DNA from: Limisphaerales bacterium
GTDB taxonomy: Bacteria; Verrucomicrobiota; Verrucomicrobiae; Limisphaerales; UBA11358
DNA: 9,906 nt
Direction: 5' to 3'
Assembly (NCBI GenBank): GCA_003152145.1
Contig: PLZL01000147.1
Coordinates: forward strand, 21,400 to 31,305
The position numbers were made by a program, and so were the translations under genes. Positions 1,741-9,906 of this stretch are shown here, in pieces. The notes under the pieces were generated by a model that saw only the letters and a program-made list of their open reading frames with translations, had not been told where the DNA came from and did not search any database. Each line of letters opens with the position of its first letter. Positions within the stretch are counted from its first letter, which is position 1.

Positions 1741-1768
1741 GGAACTTTTCGTGTCTTCGTTCCTCTTC
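1741..1768 (+). promoter_or_regulatory. Candidate ECF-type promoter before the cytochrome gene
   Basis: GGAACTTTT at 1741-1749 matches the sigma-E-type -35 element, and TCTTC follows at 1764-1768. The spacing GGAAC-N18-TC is the same as at four other intergenic sites in this window. The downstream region is pyrimidine-rich, so a TC at the right place is weaker evidence here. The start codons at 1818 or 1854 would have leaders of about 45 or 80 nt. Confidence 0.4.
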
Positions 1769-1853
1769 CTCTTATTGATGGATAACAAAACGGGCGCATC
1801 TCAGATAGCCAGATCGAATGCTGACGGCATATCCAACACTGAAAGTCAATATA

Positions 1854-2618
1854 ATGAACCGAGTTCGTGTGGCAATTTTTAACGACCGGGCCAAGGCTGA
1901 GCCAATTCAGGTGCGTCTGCAACAAGCTGGTATTCCGGCCGAAATCCACGTCGAACTTGGTCTTGCAAGGCTCTGGTTCATATCGAAACGTTCTGCGTGC
2001 GTGCGTGTTGAAGTGCCCGCTCAACTATCGGAAATAGCCCAACAGCTTTTGATCTCCTGGGGCGACGAGGCATTGTCCGCTGCGATTTACTGTCCGGAAT
2101 GCAAGTCCTTACGGGTGGACTACCCCCAGGTCACGCAAAAGTTCTTTTTCCCCAATTTGGCCATTGGCCTCATGTCCGGACTTGGACTTGTGGAGAAAGA
2201 CTACTATTGCGAGGGTTGTCATAACATGTGGCCGAAACCGCGAGTCAGCAGCGGTCCACCTGCGATAAAACCGGCACGCTTCCATCGGCTCAAGCTGTGG
2301 AAAAAAGATCTGAGCATGGCCGCCAGCCTTGGCGGAGTGCTGCTACTCGGGAACGGCCCCATGTTTGCCGAATCTTCCAGCCCAGGCTTTCCAGAGGTTA
2401 CAGGCGTAAAAGCCGAAGTGCAAAGTTCCATCCCAGCCGGAAACCAAGATTTAGCCCGCTCAGAATTGCCCACCTACCTTCGCGATATCCTGCCGATCTT
2501 CATGGGGAATTGCTCTCGCTGCCACAATCAGCAGACCCGGTTCCTCTACAACTGGCTGGACTATAAAACCGCCTACGCCGACCGCTGGGAAATCCGGCGG
2601 CGGATATGGGACAGTTGA
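1854..2618 (+). CDS. DUF2007/zinc-ribbon-like module joined to N-terminal part of a c-type cytochrome, ended by a premature TGA
   Basis: I chose the ATG at 1854 (MNRVRVAIF) because the conserved-looking domain starts there; an ATG at 1818 adds 12 residues. Residues below count from 1818. Residues 13-90 resemble the DUF2007 (putative signal transducing) fold. Cys92-x2-Cys95 and Cys131-x2-Cys134 look like a zinc ribbon. Residues 158-184 (basic stretch, then MAASLGGVLLLGNGPMFA) look like a signal peptide, normally found at a protein's N terminus. Residues 218-266 begin a cytochrome domain with the heme-binding motif CSRCH at 232-236. Translation stops at TGA 2616-2618, but the same frame continues with cytochrome sequence, and family members as I recall them have Trp there (WDSWKGSYYKESMP). 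The joining of a cytoplasmic-type module to an exported cytochrome suggests fusion of two neighbouring genes. This is probably a broken gene, unless the TGA is read through or is an error. Confidence 0.7.
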   Translation: MNRVRVAIFNDRAKAEPIQVRLQQAGIPAEIHVELGLARLWFISKRSACVRVEVPAQLSEIAQQLLISWGDEALSAAIYCPECKSLRVDYPQVTQKFFFPNLAIGLMSGLGLVEKDYYCEGCHNMWPKPRVSSGPPAIKPARFHRLKLWKKDLSMAASLGGVLLLGNGPMFAESSSPGFPEVTGVKAEVQSSIPAGNQDLARSELPTYLRDILPIFMGNCSRCHNQQTRFLYNWLDYKTAYADRWEIRRRIWDS

Positions 2619-2642
2619 AAAGGCTCGTATTACAAGGAGTCC

Positions 2643-3140
2643 ATGCCCATCGCCAACAGCCCGGAATCACTCGCGCTCACCGACGAGGAACGTTTGACCA
2701 TCCGCAATTGGGTGGACCACGGCGGCCTGCGGGGTGTGGCACCGTCGCCGGACGGCCCCAAATCGAAAACCGAGCGGATCGAACTGGGGCGGCGGCTGTT
2801 CACTTCCCTTTGCGCGGCGTGTCACCAGCCCACGGGCAAGGGACTCCCGAACATGTTTCCACCGTTGGCGGGATCCGATTTCTTGAATGCCGACAAGAGC
2901 CGGGCCATCAAGATTGTCATCTTTGGCCGGCAGGGGGAAGTGGTGGTGAACGGGATGAAATTTAACAACAATATGCCTTCGCTCCCATTAAGCGACCAGG
3001 ACATCGCGAATATTCTGATGTTTGTCTACAATTCATTCGGAAACTCCGGACTTGAGGTTACGCCGGAAGAAGTAAAAGTTCTCCGCACCCAGCCACCAGC
3101 CCCATCTGCAACGCCCGCAGCAAAAAACATCTTTGAGTGA
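2643..3140 (+). CDS. C-terminal cytochrome c domain, in frame with the preceding ORF
   Basis: This is the continuation of the preceding frame beyond the TGA at 2616-2618, with no shift. Starting at ATG 2643 gives 165 residues and no signal peptide, so on its own it could not be exported for heme attachment. Residues 42-133 form a class I cytochrome c domain. CAACH at 57-61 binds heme, and Met111 in the NNNMPSL segment (or Met105) is the likely axial ligand. The stretch FPPLAGSDFLNADK followed by an NGMKFNNNMP loop resembles the cytochrome domains found with copper nitrite reductases; I infer electron transfer in the periplasm but see no reductase here. The tail is Pro/Ala-rich. The whole frame 1854-3140 would encode about 429 codons carrying two CxxCH motifs. 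Confidence 0.8.
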   Translation: MPIANSPESLALTDEERLTIRNWVDHGGLRGVAPSPDGPKSKTERIELGRRLFTSLCAACHQPTGKGLPNMFPPLAGSDFLNADKSRAIKIVIFGRQGEVVVNGMKFNNNMPSLPLSDQDIANILMFVYNSFGNSGLEVTPEEVKVLRTQPPAPSATPAAKNIFE

Positions 3141-3173
3141 AGCTGGATGAGTGGGCGCAAAATTCGTTTGTTG

Positions 3174-3201
3174 GGAACCTTTTCGGGATTCGGCCCTCTT
3201 A
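3174..3201 (+). promoter_or_regulatory. Candidate ECF-type promoter before the propeller gene
   Basis: GGAACC at 3174-3179 and TCTTA at 3197-3201 give GGAAC-N18-TC, the spacing shared by five intergenic sites here. The ATG at 3260 would have a leader of about 50 nt. The site lies in the 119-bp gap after the cytochrome stop codon. Confidence 0.45.
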
Positions 3202-3219
3202 CTAATCGAATAACCGGCA

Positions 3220-3255
3220 CAAACCAAAGAGAAATAGCAAACCAAAGAAAAATAG
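3220..3255 (+). repeat. Two tandem 18-bp direct repeats in the propeller leader
   Basis: Unit one (3220-3237) is caaaccaaagagaaatag and unit two (3238-3255) differs by a single base (g to a). The pair ends four bases before the ATG at 3260. It is A-rich and unstructured. The first copy contains a weak AGAGA purine tract, but neither copy gives a good Shine-Dalgarno site. Its function is unknown. Confidence 0.7.
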
Positions 3256-3259
3256 TCCT

Positions 3260-4375
3260 ATGAAAATGAAACTAAATCGAATTCTGACATCCAGCGGGGC
3301 TTGGTGCTCCATTCTCACGATCATTGGCGTCATGGGGATCACGGGCGCGGCTTCGGCTGACAACATGAATCACAAATTCAACGCACGCGGCAACATTCTG
3401 ATCTCCGATCAGTTTAACAATCGTGTCATCGAGATTGACCCATCGGGCAAAATCGTTTGGTCGTTCGGGCGCGGCCCGAATGACTTCACAGCCAAGTCGG
3501 TCATCGGCGTCAACGACGCCCAGCGCGTTGGAGACTTTACCCTGATGGCCGGCACCGGCACACCCGCCGGGGTGATCCCGCAGGCGCCTGACGGCGCGGC
3601 GGACAATCGAGTCTTGTTGGTGGACCCGTCCGGCAAAATCGTCTGGCAATACGGCCAGTTCGGACAAACTGGTTCGGGGCCAAACCTGCTGGATACACCG
3701 GTGCAGAGCACGTGGCTCCCAAACATGCACGTCCTCATCACCGACCAGGCCAACAATCGGATCATCGAGGTGAACATGGCGAAGAAAATCGTCTGGCAGT
3801 ATCCGGGCTCGAACACGACCGACGCCGACCAGCTTGTTGGCCCGAACTCCGCCGAGTTGCTTGAGAACGGCCACATCCTGATTGCCGACCAGGGCAACAA
3901 CCGGGCAATTGAAGTCACGCGCGGCGACAAAATTGTCAGGACGTTCACCGCCGGTGGCACTGCCAATACTGTTGCGTTCGCCAGCCGACTCGACAACGGT
4001 GACACGCTGTTGACCGATGCCGGCAACTCCCGCGCCGTCGAAGTGGATGCCAACGACAACGTGGTCTGGCAATATTTCACTGACACCGATCCGAACAGCG
4101 TTCCCGCCCCGTTGCCAACCCGCGCGGTGCGGCTCAAGAACGGCGACACGTTGATCAGCGACCAGTTCAACAATCGCGTCATCCGCGTCAATCACGCCGG
4201 GGCGATTGTTGCCAACTACGGACTTCCGCTCGCGGGCGGCGATCCCATCGGGAACAACGCCGACTACGACACCCACACGTCGCAGAATGGATTGTATTCC
4301 CCCTACGATGCGAAAGTGGTGGGCGATTACACCGGGCTGACGCCGCCGGGTGATTTCGAACAGACACGCTGGTGA
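3260..4375 (+). CDS. Exported six-blade beta-propeller protein (NHL/PQQ-like repeats)
   Basis: This 371-residue protein has a signal peptide (basic MKMKLNR, hydrophobic core to about 30, likely cut after Ala-Ser-Ala33). Six repeats follow, each of the form ILISDQFNNRVIEID..GKIVW. They lie at about 46-69, 118-131, 158-181, 206-229, 248-272 and 297-320. The Asp-Gln-x-Asn-Asn-Arg turn and the closing Lys-Ile-Val-Trp-Gln strand are typical of NHL-like or PQQ-type propellers. No catalytic residues can be assigned; such propellers often serve as binding scaffolds, and some PQQ-type ones are dehydrogenases. It lies 119 bp after the cytochrome with its own candidate ECF-type promoter, so a redox partner role is possible but unproven. 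A long ORF on the opposite strand is a codon-bias shadow. Confidence 0.8.
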   Translation: MKMKLNRILTSSGAWCSILTIIGVMGITGAASADNMNHKFNARGNILISDQFNNRVIEIDPSGKIVWSFGRGPNDFTAKSVIGVNDAQRVGDFTLMAGTGTPAGVIPQAPDGAADNRVLLVDPSGKIVWQYGQFGQTGSGPNLLDTPVQSTWLPNMHVLITDQANNRIIEVNMAKKIVWQYPGSNTTDADQLVGPNSAELLENGHILIADQGNNRAIEVTRGDKIVRTFTAGGTANTVAFASRLDNGDTLLTDAGNSRAVEVDANDNVVWQYFTDTDPNSVPAPLPTRAVRLKNGDTLISDQFNNRVIRVNHAGAIVANYGLPLAGGDPIGNNADYDTHTSQNGLYSPYDAKVVGDYTGLTPPGDFEQTRW

Positions 4376-4400
4376 CAAATAAGCGTTGGAAGAAAAAGTG

Positions 4401-4421
4401 AGAACGGGCCATGCTCGTTCT
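4401..4421 (+). terminator. Upstream hairpin of a tandem terminator
   Basis: An 8-bp stem (4401-4408 with 4414-4421, one G-T wobble) with a 5-nt loop, followed by TTAAAT. It sits 25 bp after the propeller stop codon and just before a stronger hairpin. Confidence 0.45.
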
Positions 4422-4427
4422 TAAATC

Positions 4428-4462
4428 GGGGCGGCGCGAAAGTGCCGCCCCATTTCGTTTTC
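4428..4462 (+). terminator. Rho-independent terminator of the propeller gene
   Basis: GGGGCGGC at 4428-4435 pairs with GCCGCCCC at 4444-4451. Two further inner pairs close a GAAA tetraloop at 4438-4441, for a 10-bp GC-rich stem. The T-rich tail ATTTCGTTTTC follows. This is the best terminator in the window and separates the propeller from the second prepilin gene. Confidence 0.8.
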
Positions 4463-4675
4463 ACTCGTCGCCAACGATCAAATCCTGCTGATGTGGAGGG
4501 AAATCACCGCCGGCAAGGCCGCCGCAACCAAGGTGCCGGGGGCAGGCAGCCCGGCGGCAAAAACAAAAATCAGCCGGTCCAAAAAAGTGAAGCCGCACCG
4601 CCGGTTTCACGCGGGTGTTTCAATGTTCTCGCAAGCTTGCTTTTGGACCGTCCAACCCTGAATTTTCTTTTCCAC
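4463..4675 (+). other. Intergenic stretch, no supported gene
   Basis: Two overlapping plus-strand frames are open here. One of them, 4491-4661, would give a 56-residue Lys/Arg/Ala-rich peptide. Neither has a ribosome binding site, a recognisable domain or a promoter, and the stretch follows directly after a strong terminator. It may be a remnant of a longer gene. I do not call a gene. Confidence 0.4.
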
Positions 4676-4704
4676 TTGACAATAACGGATAATAATTGTA
4701 ATTA
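4676..4704 (+). promoter_or_regulatory. Housekeeping-like promoter of second prepilin gene
   Basis: A perfect TTGACA at 4676-4681 is followed after 17 bp by TAATTA at 4699-4704, preceded by TG (4697-4698) as in an imperfect extended -10. The predicted start near 4711 leaves a leader of about 34 nt. The -10 is a poor match, so confidence is moderate. Confidence 0.4.
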
Positions 4705-4707
4705 AGT

Positions 4708-4741
4708 TTTTGAATTGCCGTGGAACCGGCATTTTTCAAAA
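4708..4741 (+). promoter_or_regulatory. Stem-loop immediately before the second prepilin start codon
   Basis: TTTTGAA (4708-4714) pairs with TTCAAAA (4735-4741), and TGCCG (4716-4720) pairs with CGGCA (4727-4731). A 1-by-3 internal loop separates the two helices and the apical loop has 6 nt. The structure ends three bases before ATG 4745, where a ribosome would bind, and no Shine-Dalgarno site is visible. It could modulate translation, or be a DNA dyad for a regulator. Confidence 0.45.
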
Positions 4742-4744
4742 GCC

Positions 4745-5641
4745 ATGAACCGATCGCACTTTTCAAAAAAGCCGCCGGCGTCCCGCAAAACGGGCGCGAC
4801 GGGTTTTACGTTGGTTGAGCTGCTGACGGTGATCGCCATCATCGCCGTGCTGGCGGCGCTTGTATTGCCGGCGCTTTCCCGGGCGCGCGAACGGGCGGGG
4901 GCCATCCTCTGCCTGAACAACACCCGGCAGCTTGGCCTGGCCTGGCAGATTTATGCCGGCGACAATGACGAAAGGCTCCCTTACAACCTGGGCATGGCCG
5001 GCTCGTCGTTCCGCACCGGCCTCAACTGGGTCAACAACGTCATGACCTGGGACTTGAGTTCCGACAACACCAATCTCGCCACGCTGACGGGCGCGAGTCT
5101 TGGTCGTTTTGTCAGCGGCAACACGAGCGTCTATCGCTGCCCATCCGATGCGGCGTTGAGTTCGGTGCAAAGGGCCGCCGGATGGACGGCACGCATCCGC
5201 AGTTACTCGATGAATGCCATGGTCGGCGATGCGGGCGATTTTACCGCCAACGGTTTCAACGTCAACAATCCGGGCTACACGCAGTTTTTCAAGACGACCC
5301 AGATTCCGCAGCCGACTGACATTTTTGTGTTCCTTGACGAACATCCCGACAGCATTGACGATGGTTACTTTCTCGATAAGTCACCGGAAAATGGCGGCGG
5401 ATCTGGCGGTTCCTACCACAGCGCCCAATGGACGGATTTGCCGGCCTCATACCACAACGGCGCCACTGCATTTTCGTTTGCCGATGGCCACAGCTCGCTC
5501 CACCGCTGGCTGCAGCCAAACACGATCCGCCCGCCCCTGCCCAATGCCGCCAATCTTCCCATTCCAATTCCTTCCAGCCCCGCCGCCGCGCTTGCGGATT
5601 TCGATTGGGTGATGGATCACATGAGTGTTGACAAGAACTGA
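4745..5641 (+). CDS. Prepilin-type protein with H-X9-DG C-terminal motif
   Basis: This 298-residue protein starts at ATG 4745. A TTG start at 4715 would add 10 residues but lies inside a stem-loop. A 20-residue basic leader precedes the prepilin motif [10 protein letters not shown], with predicted cleavage between Gly20 and Phe21 and the conserved Glu25. The hydrophobic helix runs from about 21 to 44. The conserved C-terminal processing-associated motif is exact: His237, nine residues, then Asp247-Gly248. Cys56 and Cys132 lie in the globular part. This architecture is the large multi-copy Planctomycetes/Verrucomicrobia pseudopilin-like family. The protein is expected at the inner membrane or in a pseudopilus, but no secretion genes are present. 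It converges on the anti-sigma gene with only 30 bp between. Confidence 0.85.
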
Positions 5642-5668
5642 CGGGCGCGCGAAGCCCGCAGATTTTCG
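5642..5668 (+). terminator. Weak hairpin between convergent genes
   Basis: CGGGC at 5642-5646 pairs with GCCCG at 5654-5658 across a 7-nt loop, with GATTTT shortly after. It begins directly after the prepilin stop codon. The stem is short and the T-run is four bases, so termination is plausible but weak. Confidence 0.35.
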
Positions 5669-5671
5669 GAA

Positions 5672-6427
5672 TCAAAGGAATTTCCGGATCGTTGACTCGT
5701 CGCCTTCCGTTCCCAGCAGATAAACTTTGTCGCCCTGCGCCCAGGCAGCCGTGATGAGTCCCTTGACGGCAGCGAACCGGGGCTGGCCGATTTCTGGCGC
5801 ATCTTTCACCGAAGCGCGATCCACCACGAACAACCACAGGTCACTCGACTGGTTTGGCGGAAGTGGCCGACCGGTGCGAAAACAGATCATCGAAACTTTC
5901 ACATTCTGCCAGCCCTCGACGGCGCAGCCGGTGATGGCGGCTTTTTGCAGCGCCGCTGGCAAAACATAATCCGCCGGCGCCTGTTTTGTGGCAAGGTAGG
6001 CGCGGATTTGTTCCGAATCGTTTGTCGTCAAATCCATTCCGTAGGGGTTCAGCGCAATCCTCACCATCTGGTTCTGGTAAATGGCCAGCGTGTCGTCGCT
6101 CGGACGCCGCGGGAGCCAGAGCGTCGCCAGAAAGGCCAATAGAACGAGGGCAGCCACCGCCGCCAGCGCGATGCGCGGACGCCAGTAAATCTTCCTCTCC
6201 TGCACGGCCTGTTCGGAGATGATTTGTTCCTTCAGCCCGGCAGGCACGGTGATTTGGCGGAATTTGGCGCGCAAAGCCTCCTGTCGCGCGCAATGCTCCT
6301 CCAGCCAGCGCGCCAGTTCCGGCTCCCGTTTCGCCAGCGCCAGCGCCCCGGCGATTTGCGGGTCTTCCGCGTCCGCCGTTCCGGGCCGGTAAAGCAGCAA
6401 AATGGTTTTGGCTTCGTTGAGTTTCAC
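5672..6427 (-). CDS. Membrane anti-sigma factor-like protein
   Basis: This 251-residue protein is translated from a GTG start that overlaps the sigma factor's TGA by four bases (GTGA, 6424-6427), so the two are probably translationally coupled. Residues 1-80 form a charged cytoplasmic region (LARWLEEHCARQEALRAKF at 38-56), expected to bind the sigma factor. One transmembrane helix lies at about 85-105, followed by Arg-Arg-Pro. Residues 110-251 form an extracytoplasmic domain with two cysteines (Cys168, Cys182) that could sense redox state or a metal. The canonical zinc anti-sigma motif (H-x3-C-x2-C) is absent; only His45-Cys46 occur. The assignment rests mainly on operon position and topology. 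The sensory ligand is unknown. Confidence 0.7.
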   Translation of the reverse strand: MKLNEAKTILLLYRPGTADAEDPQIAGALALAKREPELARWLEEHCARQEALRAKFRQITVPAGLKEQIISEQAVQERKIYWRPRIALAAVAALVLLAFLATLWLPRRPSDDTLAIYQNQMVRIALNPYGMDLTTNDSEQIRAYLATKQAPADYVLPAALQKAAITGCAVEGWQNVKVSMICFRTGRPLPPNQSSDLWLFVVDRASVKDAPEIGQPRFAAVKGLITAAWAQGDKVYLLGTEGDESTIRKFL

Positions 6428-6948
6428 AAAGGGGTTTGTTCCGGGCGCGGCCCCGCAGTTTCATCGGCGAGCAATTCCTGCAGCCGGCCGATGCCGCGGG
6501 AAAGCCGTGATTTGACCGTGCCCAGCGGCACTTGAAGGATTTCCGCAATTTCGTTGTAGGAGCAATCCTGCAAGTAAAACAGCGCGACGGGCGCCTGATA
6601 AATTTCATCCAGCCGCGCCAGCTCCGCGAGCACCCGCGCCGTGTCGTGGCGGCTGATTGCAGCCGGCGACACGACGGGCAGTTCCGGCTCGGCCTGCTCC
6701 AGTTCGACGTGCGGAAAGCGGGTTTGCCTTCGCCGCGAGCCGAGAAACTCGCGATGGAGCGTGGTGAACAGCCAGGTTTTCACTTTGGATGCGTCGCGCA
6801 GTTGGTGGCCTTTGACCGCCCAAATGCAAAAAGTTTGTTGTGTGAGGTCACATGCGTCCGACTCATCGCGGGCGAGGCTGAACGCGAATTGATAGAGCGG
6901 CTCGTAATAACGAGCCACCAGACCTTCAAATTCCACGTTGTCAGCCAT
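6424..6948 (-). CDS. ECF-family RNA polymerase sigma factor
   Basis: This 174-residue protein has the standard two-domain ECF layout. Region 2 spans about 8-75, with YYEPLYQFAFSLARDESDA, the DLTQQTFCIW segment for core binding, and KVKTWLFTTLHREFL for -10 recognition. Region 4 spans about 103-160; its helix-turn-helix (YNEIAEILQVPLGTVKSRLSRG) binds the -35 element. The linker at 76-102 is Pro-rich. The ATG at 6946-6948 has no good Shine-Dalgarno site. A candidate ECF-type promoter at 6965-6992 on the same strand would leave a short leader and suggests autoregulation. The gene diverges from an exported Ig-domain protein. The family is clear, but the exact ECF group cannot be assigned by eye. 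Confidence 0.92.
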   Translation of the reverse strand: MADNVEFEGLVARYYEPLYQFAFSLARDESDACDLTQQTFCIWAVKGHQLRDASKVKTWLFTTLHREFLGSRRRQTRFPHVELEQAEPELPVVSPAAISRHDTARVLAELARLDEIYQAPVALFYLQDCSYNEIAEILQVPLGTVKSRLSRGIGRLQELLADETAGPRPEQTPL

Positions 6949-6964
6949 GCCAAGTCATCAATGG

Positions 6965-6992
6965 TTGGAGGAAGTAATGCAACATTTGTTCC
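6965..6992 (-). promoter_or_regulatory. Candidate autoregulated ECF promoter of the sigma gene
   Basis: On the minus strand GGAAC (6992-6988) is followed by 18 bases and then TCCAA (6969-6965). Transcription would start a few bases later, giving a leader of about 10-15 nt before ATG 6948. The -35 element lies within the left arm of an inverted repeat. Confidence 0.45.
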
Positions 6993-7026
6993 CGGAAAAA
7001 GCGAGCTTGAAGTTCTCGGGAACAAA
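6985..7026. repeat. Perfect 10-bp inverted repeat between divergent genes
   Basis: TTTGTTCCCG at 6985-6994 is the exact reverse complement of CGGGAACAAA at 7017-7026, with a 22-bp spacer. Each arm carries a GGGAACAAA that would serve as an outward-facing ECF -35 element. The dyad could therefore be two back-to-back promoters, an operator, or both. Confidence 0.7.
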
Positions 7027-7046
7027 ATCCGGCTTCATCGCTCTCA
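7019..7046 (+). promoter_or_regulatory. Candidate ECF-type promoter of the exported Ig-domain gene
   Basis: GGAACA at 7019-7024 and TCTCA at 7042-7046 give GGAAC-N18-TC, close to the sigma-E pattern. The leader to ATG 7180 would be about 125 nt and contains a small dyad (GTTTAA 7072-7077 with TTAAAC 7084-7089). Confidence 0.5.
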
Positions 7047-7179
7047 CTGAATGAAGCGCGCAGTGCCGGGCGTTTAAGGCAGATTAAACACGGTAAAGAC
7101 TGTTATCCGTTTGAACCAAACCATTGACCATATCGAGCCTGTGAAATCAGAAAATATCGTTCATGAAAACTCATCCGTG

Positions 7180-8181
7180 ATGATTCGATCACTCCGATCT
7201 GGCAGCCTCGGGCGTGCCCCACGCTGGCCCATGCTCTTTTTGCTGGCCGTTCTGGCTGCGCCGGTGGCGACGGAAGCCGCCACAGTTTGGACGGGGCCGA
7301 CCCTATCCTTTATCAATCACTCGGTGTCCGACGTGGATCAAATCACTCCCAATGTCTGGCTGACACGCGGTGGTGTTCAGGGCATCTACAACGCCAAGAC
7401 GGAGTCGTTATTCACACACAATTTCAGTCCAGCCGATACCGAGTGGGCCAATGGAACCACCGCCAACTATGCTTCGCTTTCTTACACGGATTGGAACACA
7501 TGGGCTGACGGGGTAAATCCCGGCCCGCCGAGCACAGTTGGCGTTAATGCCGTCATGCATCTCATCTCGGAAGATATTTATTTGGATATCACATTCACCT
7601 CCTGGCCTAATGGACACAGTGGCAACACCGGCTTTTCTTACAATCGCTCCACTCCGGCGGTCGCCAATAATCCTCCATCGGTCACTATCACGAATCCCGC
7701 CGATGGAGCGGTCTTCGCCGCACCGGCCAACATCACCATTCAAGCCTCGGCCTCGGATCCGGACACGGGCGACAGTGTCACGAACGTCCAGTTCCTCGTC
7801 GGCTCGACGGTTCTGACCAACGAGGCCACCGATCCCTTTATCGCAGTCACCAACAACCTGCCAGCGGGCAACTATACACTCTCCACTATCGCTTCGGATG
7901 ACAGCGGCGCAACGTCCACCAACTCCTTGAACATCAGCGTCATCAAGCCGGTGCCGGTCGTCATCAGTTCGCCGTCGCGGCCATCAAGCACAAATTTTCA
8001 ATTCAGCTACACGGCAGACGTCGGGCTTGGTTACATCGTCCAATGGTCAACCAATTTGCTTTCGACCGACTGGATTACGCTCGTCACAAACACGGCGGCG
8101 GCCAGCCTGGTGAATTTTTCCGATACAAACGCGACGGCAAGCCCCGGATTTTACAGGGTCGGTCGCCTGCCGAATCCGTGA
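7180..8181 (+). CDS. Exported protein with unrecognised N-terminal domain and one bacterial Ig-like domain
   Basis: I chose ATG 7180 (333 residues) because a signal peptide follows at once: MIRSLRSGSLGRAPRW, the hydrophobic MLFLLAVLAAPVA, then a likely cut after Thr-Glu-Ala. Upstream in-frame TTG (7111) and GTG (7141, 7177) codons are alternatives. After the signal, about 130 residues (TVWTGPTLSFINH to FSYNRSTP) look like a beta-rich domain rich in Trp, Asp and Asn. I recognise the style from other environmental bacteria but cannot assign a function. About 7672-7950 encode one Big_7-type Ig repeat (PPSVTITNPADG to NSLNISV). The final 75 residues (FQFSYTADVGLGYIVQWSTNL ending FYRV) resemble a C-terminal domain common in verrucomicrobial secreted proteins. 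An adhesin-like or surface role is inferred. Confidence 0.7.
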   Translation: MIRSLRSGSLGRAPRWPMLFLLAVLAAPVATEAATVWTGPTLSFINHSVSDVDQITPNVWLTRGGVQGIYNAKTESLFTHNFSPADTEWANGTTANYASLSYTDWNTWADGVNPGPPSTVGVNAVMHLISEDIYLDITFTSWPNGHSGNTGFSYNRSTPAVANNPPSVTITNPADGAVFAAPANITIQASASDPDTGDSVTNVQFLVGSTVLTNEATDPFIAVTNNLPAGNYTLSTIASDDSGATSTNSLNISVIKPVPVVISSPSRPSSTNFQFSYTADVGLGYIVQWSTNLLSTDWITLVTNTAAASLVNFSDTNATASPGFYRVGRLPNP

Positions 8182-8238
8182 TTTGCCGGTAACGAACATC
8201 AATTTGCCGTTCGATGGCAGGAGTTATGGACAAGAAAT

Positions 8239-8502
8239 ATGAGGGTATGGCGATTATTCACCAGCGCATTGCCATTCGGTTTGTGGATGTTGATTCTGTT
8301 TGCTGTCCCATCCGCCAAATCGCTGCCGCCAGCCACCAGCGAGACCGCCCGCCTGCAGATCTTCTCAATCAAAGGCGTGGTGCACTCCATCAACCGCGAC
8401 GAACGTCAACTCGTCATCCGTCACGAGGCCATTTCCAATTACATGGCGGCCCTGGCCATGCCGTTCGATGCAAAAACCGCTGGCCTGCTGGCGGATCTGT
8501 AG
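8239..8502 (+). CDS. Truncated CusF-like periplasmic copper-binding protein
   Basis: The 87-residue reading frame has a signal peptide (MRVWRLF, a hydrophobic core through about 26, likely cut after Pro-Ser-Ala-Lys-Ser). It then has a CusF-type fold start: IKGVVHSINRDERQLVIRHE, followed by ISNYMAALAMPFDAKT. The HE-I-x-x-YM-x-A-x-x-MPF pattern is the signature of CusF/SCO-associated copper-binding domains, where Met and His ligate copper. It ends at TAG 8500-8502 in the middle of the domain, while the same frame continues with the expected remaining strands. A truncated product would lack the closing strands and probably not fold. No good ribosome binding site lies at the ATG; AGGAG at 8219-8223 is 15 nt away. 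Confidence 0.65.
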   Translation: MRVWRLFTSALPFGLWMLILFAVPSAKSLPPATSETARLQIFSIKGVVHSINRDERQLVIRHEAISNYMAALAMPFDAKTAGLLADL

Positions 8503-8682
8503 GATGGCGATGAAATATCGTTTCAACTTCACGTCACCGAAACGAAAGGCTGGGTGGATTAAATCGTCAAAACCGGAACGGCCTCACCGCCACCGCCGGC
8601 AGTGTCGGCAGCGCCAGCAGCGCCGGCAGATTTCCTGGAACAAATCTGTCGGCCATTCATCCCACACGCAAGAGTGATATGA
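8503..8682 (+). pseudogene. Remnant of the CusF-like gene's 3' end
   Basis: In the same frame as 8239-8502, this reads DGDEISFQLHVTETKGWVD, which is the expected CusF C-terminal half, then a second stop (TAA 8560-8562), then IVKTG and a Pro/Ala-rich linker. The frame finally stops at TGA 8680-8682, overlapping the next gene's ATG (8679-8681) as ATGA. Frame and motif conservation across two stops shows decay by point substitutions. In related bacteria as I recall, such a linker leads into a SCO1 thioredoxin-like domain. None is present here, so the SCO part may have been lost. Confidence 0.7.
8637..8664 (+). promoter_or_regulatory. Candidate ECF-type promoter of the cupredoxin gene
   Basis: GGAACA at 8637-8642 and TCCCA at 8660-8664 again give GGAAC-N18-TC. 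The ATG at 8679 would have a very short leader (under 15 nt). The site lies inside the decayed CusF frame. Confidence 0.4.
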
Positions 8683-9906
8683 AATCTTTGTCTAAAATTT
8701 TTCCGGGCGTTGCCGCGGCGGCTCTATTGTGCCTTGGCTGCCCGCTATCCGGCCTTGCCGCCAGCGCCGGCGTGACGGTCGGAAGCCCCCTTGACCGCTT
8801 CTCACCCGCTGTTGTCACCATCGCGGCCGGCGATCAGGTGATATGGACCTGGGCTGCCGGCAACCACTCCACAAGCAGCGGCACCAACGGAGTGGCTGGC
8901 GATGATAATGGCGTGCCGAGCGGACTTTGGAATTCGGGCACCATCATCACCCTCCCACACACTTTCACCAACACGTTCCCTTCAGCGGGCAATTTCTCGT
9001 ATTTTTGTCAGGTGCATTTTAGCCTGGGGATGACCGGCGCAGTCATTGTCACCAACGTCAATGTCGCGCCGACCGTTTCCATCACTAATCCGGCAACGGG
9101 CACGTTGTTCGTTGCGCCGGCCAACGTGACCATCCAGGCGGCGGTCACCAACGGCAGCGGCACGGTGACGAACGTGCAATTCCGAATCGGCTCGACCGTT
9201 TTGACCAACGACAATGCCGCGCCGTTTTCCGGCACGACCAACAACCTTGCCGCCGGCAGTTACACACTCACGGCCATCGCCTCGGACAACAATGGCTTGA
9301 AGGCGACCAATTCGGTGAACATCACCGTGGACACGCCGCCGACCGTGACCATCACCAATCCGTTGTCCGGCACGGTATTCATTGCGCCCGCGAACCTGAC
9401 GATTCAAGCCTCGGCTTCAGATTTGGACGCGGGCGGCAGTGTCACGAACGTCCAGTTCCTCGTCGGCTCGACGGTTTTGACCAACCAAACCTCCGCCCCG
9501 TTTTCCGCCACGACAAATAATCTGGCGGCTGGAAGTTATACGCTTTCCGCCGTCGCTTCAGACAATCTCGGCGTGAAAACGACGAATTCCGTGAACATCG
9601 TCGTGGACACGCCGCCGACCGTGAGCATCACCAATCCGCTGAACAACGCCACGTTGAGCGCGCCGGCCAACGTGACCATTCAAGCTTCGGCCTCGGATAC
9701 GGACGCGGGCCGCAGCGTTACGAACGTCCAGTTCCTCGTCGGCTCGACGGTTTTGACCAACGAAACCACCGCCCCATTTTCCGCTGCGACCAACAATCTC
9801 GCAGCGGGCAGTTACACACTCACAGCCATCGCCTCGGACAACAATGGCGTGAAAAATACGAATGCAGTCACCATCAACGTCGTCACGCCAGTGCAGACCA
9901 CTTTGA
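8679..9906 (+). CDS. Exported cupredoxin with at least three Ig-like repeats, 3' end outside window
   Basis: The frame is open from ATG 8679 to the window end (409 codons, partial). A signal peptide covers about 1-29, ending GLAASA; there is no proper lipobox around Cys18/Cys21. Residues 30-125 form a plastocyanin-like cupredoxin. The type 1 copper ligands are His63 (GNHS), Cys110 and His113 (YFCQVH) and Met118 (LGMTG). The domain should carry electrons outside the cytoplasm. From 9066, three Big_7-type Ig repeats of about 90-92 residues follow (starting near 9066, 9336 and 9612), each with the pattern PPTVSITNP, PANVTIQASASD, VTNVQFLVGSTVLTN and NNLAAGSYTLTAIASDN. A cupredoxin carried on an Ig stalk suggests display away from the membrane. 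The ATG overlaps the stop of the decayed copper-binding gene. The C-terminal end is unknown. Confidence 0.85.
   Translation, partial: MKSLSKIFPGVAAAALLCLGCPLSGLAASAGVTVGSPLDRFSPAVVTIAAGDQVIWTWAAGNHSTSSGTNGVAGDDNGVPSGLWNSGTIITLPHTFTNTFPSAGNFSYFCQVHFSLGMTGAVIVTNVNVAPTVSITNPATGTLFVAPANVTIQAAVTNGSGTVTNVQFRIGSTVLTNDNAAPFSGTTNNLAAGSYTLTAIASDNNGLKATNSVNITVDTPPTVTITNPLSGTVFIAPANLTIQASASDLDAGGSVTNVQFLVGSTVLTNQTSAPFSATTNNLAAGSYTLSAVASDNLGVKTTNSVNIVVDTPPTVSITNPLNNATLSAPANVTIQASASDTDAGRSVTNVQFLVGSTVLTNETTAPFSAATNNLAAGSYTLTAIASDNNGVKNTNAVTINVVTPVQTTL
9066..9887 (+). repeat. Three tandem Ig-domain coding repeats
   Basis: Units begin at about 9066, 9336 and 9612, with periods of 270 and 276 bp. Conservation is visible at nucleotide level, strongest over the VTNVQFLVGSTVLTN segment. 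The unit in the upstream gene (about 7672-7950) belongs to the same set. Confidence 0.85.

Follow-up and report, generated by a model that had tools for sequence, protein, structure and literature searches.

The locus and its motif

The window analyzed here is a stretch of 9.9 kb of DNA from a Limisphaerales bacterium (contig PLZL01000147.1), and all positions are numbered on the whole stretch. It contains, in order, genes for a pilin-like protein, an interrupted cytochrome, a propeller protein and a second pilin-like protein, then, on the minus strand, genes for a putative anti-sigma factor and an extracytoplasmic function (ECF) sigma factor, and finally genes for an immunoglobulin-like (Ig) domain protein, a CusF-like fragment, and a cupredoxin with Ig domains. 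Our subject is a short motif, GGAAC-N18-TC, found in several of the gaps between these genes (Table 1). Judging from the comparisons described below, the window's ECF sigma factor very probably uses it as its promoter.

The exact motif is found seven times, at 1741(+), 2350(+), 3174(+), 6992(−), 7019(+), 7795(−), and 8637(+). The mean of shuffled windows is 1.55, and none of 200 shuffles reached seven matches. The original prediction had listed five sites, 1741, 3174, 6992, 7019, and 8637: All are present where it placed them and all are intergenic, while 2350 and 7795 lie inside genes. There are 33 GGAAC words when both strands are considered, and the rule is followed by five of the nine intergenic words and two of the 24 coding words (Fisher p 0.009), a comparison which is partly circular because the rule was derived from sites 6992 and 7019. 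The smaller counts in the original prediction need some revision. It had seen about eight coding words, with 2350 as the only one which fits; this word does fit, but there are 24 of them and 7795(−) also fits. A non-fitting intergenic word given as 8576 is really at 8575, and two others missing from its list, 1763(−) and 269(−), do not fit.

Table 1. Position of the sites and genes considered in the window, with the evidence for each.
Feature	Position	Strand	Evidence
Weak site before the cytochrome gene	1741–1768	+	Matrix score 15.4; homologous loci 0/20
Small N-terminal domain joined to cytochrome c, in-frame stop at 2616–2618	1818–3140	+	Unsupported as a target
Promoter-like site, propeller gene	3174–3201	+	Matrix score 27.3; orthologs 6/6
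Exported beta-propeller, ScyF-like but below the cut-off of that model	3260–4375	+	Model match; orthologs
Putative anti-sigma factor of 251 aa, predicted to cross the membrane once	5672–6427	−	4-bp overlap with the sigma gene
ECF sigma factor of 174 aa with no domains but sigma2 and sigma4; recognition helix with K146	6424–6948	−	Pfam Sigma70_r2, r4_2
Promoter-like site, sigma gene (autoregulation)	6965–6992	−	Matrix score 26.8; conserved 44/51
Divergent promoter-like site, Ig-domain gene	7019–7046	+	Matrix score 25.3; divergent site 24/50
Exported Ig-domain (Big_7) protein, possibly starting only at the ATG at 7180	7111–8181	+	Pfam Big_7; relatives
Promoter-like site, cupredoxin/Ig gene	8637–8664	+	Matrix score 14.9; Ig-bearing cupredoxins 7/10
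Exported cupredoxin bearing Big_7 Ig domains, cut off by the window edge	8679–9906	+	Pfam Copper-bind, Big_7

The sigma factor and its own site

The ECF sigma gene which had been claimed inside the window is indeed there. Its product matches Pfam r2 at residues 10–77 and r4_2 at 105–155, and NCBIfam sigma70-ECF above the cut-off. As expected for ECF (group IV) factors, only the sigma2 and sigma4 domains are present, and an AAC-type −35 element precedes its own gene. Sequence searches find very close relatives; one of them, P0001, is 99% identical and is encoded on a metagenome contig of 213 kb.

All genome-wide counts and conservation data were obtained on relatives of the window's genome. We have taken the best 80 of 137 sigma loci, from titled genome records, most of them labelled Verrucomicrobiota: 51 have a sigma identity of at least 60%, and 29 are below 60%. 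Four records (L026, L042, L055, and L058) are labelled Acidobacteria, Klebsiella, Proteobacteria, and Blastochloris, respectively; their sigma genes group with those of Verrucomicrobiota, and they are probably misassigned bins.

In 44 of the 51 closer loci, GGAAC-N18-TC is found at no more than 90 bp from the sigma start. A spacing of 17 is found in none of these loci and a spacing of 19 in one. Three of the seven exceptions (L042, L046, and L048) belong to a group with GGAAT, described below. The motif is absent near the sigma start in all 29 loci below 60% identity. The site is mostly located 42–49 bp before the start codon, so the leader would have only about ten bases. In another locus, L001, an apparent second sigma-type site (about 4933–4949), for a putative second sigma gene, is accompanied by a divergent site which precedes a cupredoxin/Ig gene; the arrangement suggests that the module has been duplicated.

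Sites selected by a matrix from other genomes

A matrix was built from 38 dereplicated sites out of the 44 own-gene sites. All of them come from other genomes, the window contributed none. Their consensus is T..cGGGAACAATT-N13-CTCTTA. The five highest scores in the window correspond to the five intergenic sites (Table 1), and the next position scores 8.8. The words inside genes, 2350 and 7795, score less than 5 and are rejected. When the columns of the matrix were permuted, none of 1000 matrices gave five hits scoring at least 14 in the window (mean 0.027, largest 3). This test is not circular, and it picks the same five sites.

Distribution in related genomes

The original prediction had proposed a search for genome-wide enrichment. 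We have carried it out in 23 related genomes with a strict pattern, itself derived from the sigma genes' own sites; the controls were a spacer one base shorter, a spacer one base longer, and the pattern read backwards. The exact spacing is enriched, with 65 matches compared to 26 for the shorter and 27 for the longer spacer, and the excess is found on contigs carrying the matched sigma gene: By our count, such contigs carry 37 of the 65 matches, compared to 1 of 26 and 1 of 27. These 37 matches include 18 own sites of sigma genes, the source of the pattern, and 19 others. The conservation in relatives which had also been proposed as a check is found for the own-gene site, for the propeller site (six of six orthologs), and for the site before Ig-bearing cupredoxins (seven of ten).

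The first block of the motif changes together with the recognition helix of the sigma factor. Among the 80 sigma factors, the variable residue in GTVxSR is K in 44, Q in 5, and M in 30, with one unread. Sigma factors with K or Q have GGAAC-N18-TC in 45 of 49 cases and GGAAT-N19-TC in none. Those with M have GGAAT-N19-TC in 14 of 30 cases, GGAATAA within 120 bp in 22, and GGAAC-N18-TC in none. In Corynebacterium glutamicum sigma-H, residue M170 interacts with the last base of the GGAAT element, its fifth, located at −31 (PMC11588781). The position in the window's sigma factor should be equivalent, because GTVMSR is common to SigH, and the pairing of K/Q with GGAAC and M with GGAAT fits the published work on the same residue.

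Genes following the sites

According to the original prediction, each site precedes a gene for an exported protein. This holds for 3174, 7019, and 8637; the gene after 1741 has no plain signal peptide at its start. The propeller gene is the best case. Searching 35 genomes (E up to 1e-60), close orthologs with 74–82% identity are found in six of them, and all six have a matrix site upstream, with scores of 21.8–27.5. Two are found on the contig of the sigma gene, about 5 kb away from it in G002 and about 38 kb away in G016. The other four are off the contig of the matched sigma gene and still have the site, which therefore goes with the propeller gene rather than with a location.

Thirty cupredoxin loci, out of 42 matches, were compared. 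The site is present in seven of the ten which bear Ig domains, compared to one of the 20 which lack them. The CusF-like open reading frame (ORF) which precedes the cupredoxin gene, at 8239–8502, stops inside its domain (profile positions 4–48 of 72) and looks truncated.

Other genes under sites code for longer Ig proteins with a glucose/sorbosone-dehydrogenase domain, and for proteins of the CHRD, ferritin-like, and CBM96 kinds (a domain scan covered 10 of the 39 target ORFs). Signal-like N-termini are found in 30 of the 39 predicted target ORFs, compared to 206 of 607 called genes. Among the 39 are the four targets of the window, one gene counted under two sites, and some spurious ORFs which we have kept.

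These comparisons make the sigma factor, the Ig protein and the propeller the best-supported members of the regulon. The cupredoxin is a likely member, and the cytochrome is unsupported.

The predicted membrane partner

The gene at 5672–6427 resembles those of class I anti-sigma factors (RseA/MucA type) in being co-encoded with the sigma gene, which it overlaps. In 46 of the 51 loci the sigma gene is followed by an ORF of about 250 aa for which one membrane helix is predicted (L016, with a longer ORF, is not counted). The product in the window is probably an anti-sigma factor which would hold the sigma factor in check until an outside signal is received.

About 145 residues lie beyond the membrane helix, and the RseB rows align there over RseB residues 212–309. 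The N-terminal lipid-binding domain of RseB, residues 25–208 (PMC7400510), is absent from this product, which we have not classified as a member of RseB/MucB. In the predicted outer domain there is a pair of cysteines, C168 and C182; 36 of 41 aligned sequences, that of the window among them, have both. They are on neighbouring strands of the structure model, and may form a disulfide or a metal site.

Interpretation

The motif, its conservation, its linkage to the sigma gene and the classes of target genes are computational results. We infer that the motif is a promoter read by the sigma factor encoded at 6424–6948, with control by the membrane partner, autoregulation, and exported proteins as targets; we give this explanation as a whole a probability of about 87%. 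The membrane protein would bind the sigma factor at the inner face, and its outer half, which may resemble the RseB/MucB C-terminal domain in shape, would receive or gate an envelope signal. Cleavage or release would then free the sigma factor, which would transcribe its own operon (6992), the divergent Ig gene (7019), the propeller gene (3174), and the cupredoxin/Ig gene (8637).

Several results weigh against this explanation. The divergent site scores at least 14 in only 24 of 50 related loci, site 8637 is weak by itself, and site 1741 fails. All seven site-bearing Ig cupredoxins are on sigma-bearing contigs, so the class of cupredoxin is confounded with linkage. The reversed pattern gives 40 matches, a poorer contrast with 65 than that of the spacing controls (its sums for the true, shorter and longer spacings are 40, 18, and 26). 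Off the sigma-bearing contigs there are 28 matches, hardly any excess over the controls (25 and 26); the regulon is therefore small and mostly local, and the case for unlinked targets depends chiefly on the orthologs of the propeller. The M sigma factors are one side of a branch in the sigma tree (support 100/98), so the K/M split counts as one change, not many. Finally, the −10 element, CTCTTA, is not of the CGT type; according to PMC8103513, this type is typical in the original ECF definition and is not required in later ones.

Other explanations may be considered. The original prediction included all five sites in one regulon, linking a cytochrome, a propeller, an Ig protein and a cupredoxin. 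Enrichment and conservation in relatives support the local ECF sigma regulon, and the links to the Ig gene, the propeller (the best) and the cupredoxin are also supported; the link to the cytochrome is not. Site 1741 matches the motif exactly, spacing included, and its score is above all positions other than the sites. Nevertheless, it is one of the two weak sites and lacks the conserved A of CTCTTA, and no matrix site is found in 20 loci (out of 24 matches) homologous to parts of the cytochrome gene, an imperfect check because each locus matches one or other part of the fused gene. An in-frame stop splits the cytochrome c gene from its downstream half (2643–3140). The frame is uninterrupted there in eight of the nine relatives examined (the ninth gave no line), which leaves either a broken gene or a sequence error. 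We consider a regulon with all five members unlikely: Site 1741 is probably a chance or decayed site, and we do not count it as a member. Upstream of it, at 1441–1560, there is a degenerate fragment similar to the beginning of the first pilin-like gene (569).

A copper-homeostasis switch similar to CorE is considerably less probable. A cupredoxin and a CusF-like ORF are found in the window, and cupredoxins recur as targets. CorE is controlled by a cysteine-rich tail (PMC3107203), but the sigma factor in the window ends at residue 174 with no cysteine after residue 129. In addition, a membrane partner is encoded, and 19 of the 20 Ig-less cupredoxins have no site.

The motif might also be the operator of another DNA-binding regulator, found near the sigma gene by co-location, as proteins other than a sigma factor could recognize words of the GGAAC type. 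This is slightly less probable still. The motif has two rigidly spaced blocks which look like −35 and −10 elements and, by inspection, are not inverted copies of each other. The first block varies with the recognition-helix residue, albeit in one change on the tree, and the counterpart of this residue in C. glutamicum sigma-H interacts with the fifth −35 base (PMC11588781). Finally, chance matches to a post hoc rule, made by eye from two of the five sites, are contradicted by the foreign matrix, the permuted matrices and the conservation in orthologs for every site except 1741, and may practically be dismissed.

Comparison with known systems

Autoregulated ECF switches with an anti-sigma partner are already well known. 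The present case departs from them in its targets, its −10 element, and the predicted build of the partner. The systems of E. coli sigma-E (RpoE)/RseA/RseB and P. aeruginosa AlgU/MucA/MucB have two partner proteins, while the window has one, which lacks the N-terminal lipid-binding domain of RseB; no sequence match to either was found. The target set is also different, small, mostly local, and formed by exported Ig, cupredoxin and propeller proteins, as is the CTCTTA −10 element.

There is also some likeness to the SigH/SigR type, with its GGAAT −35 element. In profile comparisons, the nearest solved sequences include SigH and SigE of mycobacteria, and the distant M-type relatives share GTVMSR and GGAAT with this type. 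On the other hand, the window's sigma factor has K and GGAAC upstream, and its partner is predicted to be membrane-bound and, by inspection, has no Hx3Cx2C motif. CorE of Myxococcus xanthus, a copper-dependent ECF sigma factor, is similar in having copper proteins as targets, but differs in the two features discussed above, the cysteine-rich tail and the encoded membrane partner.

In summary, for a soil bacterium which has received little study, these results provide a promoter matrix open to testing, a sigma factor with its putative partner, and a few predicted targets. Little is known of gene regulation in these bacteria, because the collection we have searched represents them almost only by metagenome-assembled genomes. 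A common control may be assigned to secreted proteins of unknown role. A tentative proposal, which we hold less probable than its opposite, is that Limisphaerales have a one-protein sensor of the RseA/RseB (MucA/MucB) kind. Its inner half would hold a sigma-E-like factor, and its outer half, similar to the C-terminal part of RseB and carrying C168 and C182, would sense the redox or metal state of the envelope and switch on a compact secreted set of cupredoxin, Ig and propeller proteins. The build of the partner hints at a way in which one protein could take the place of the two in the RseA/RseB sensor.

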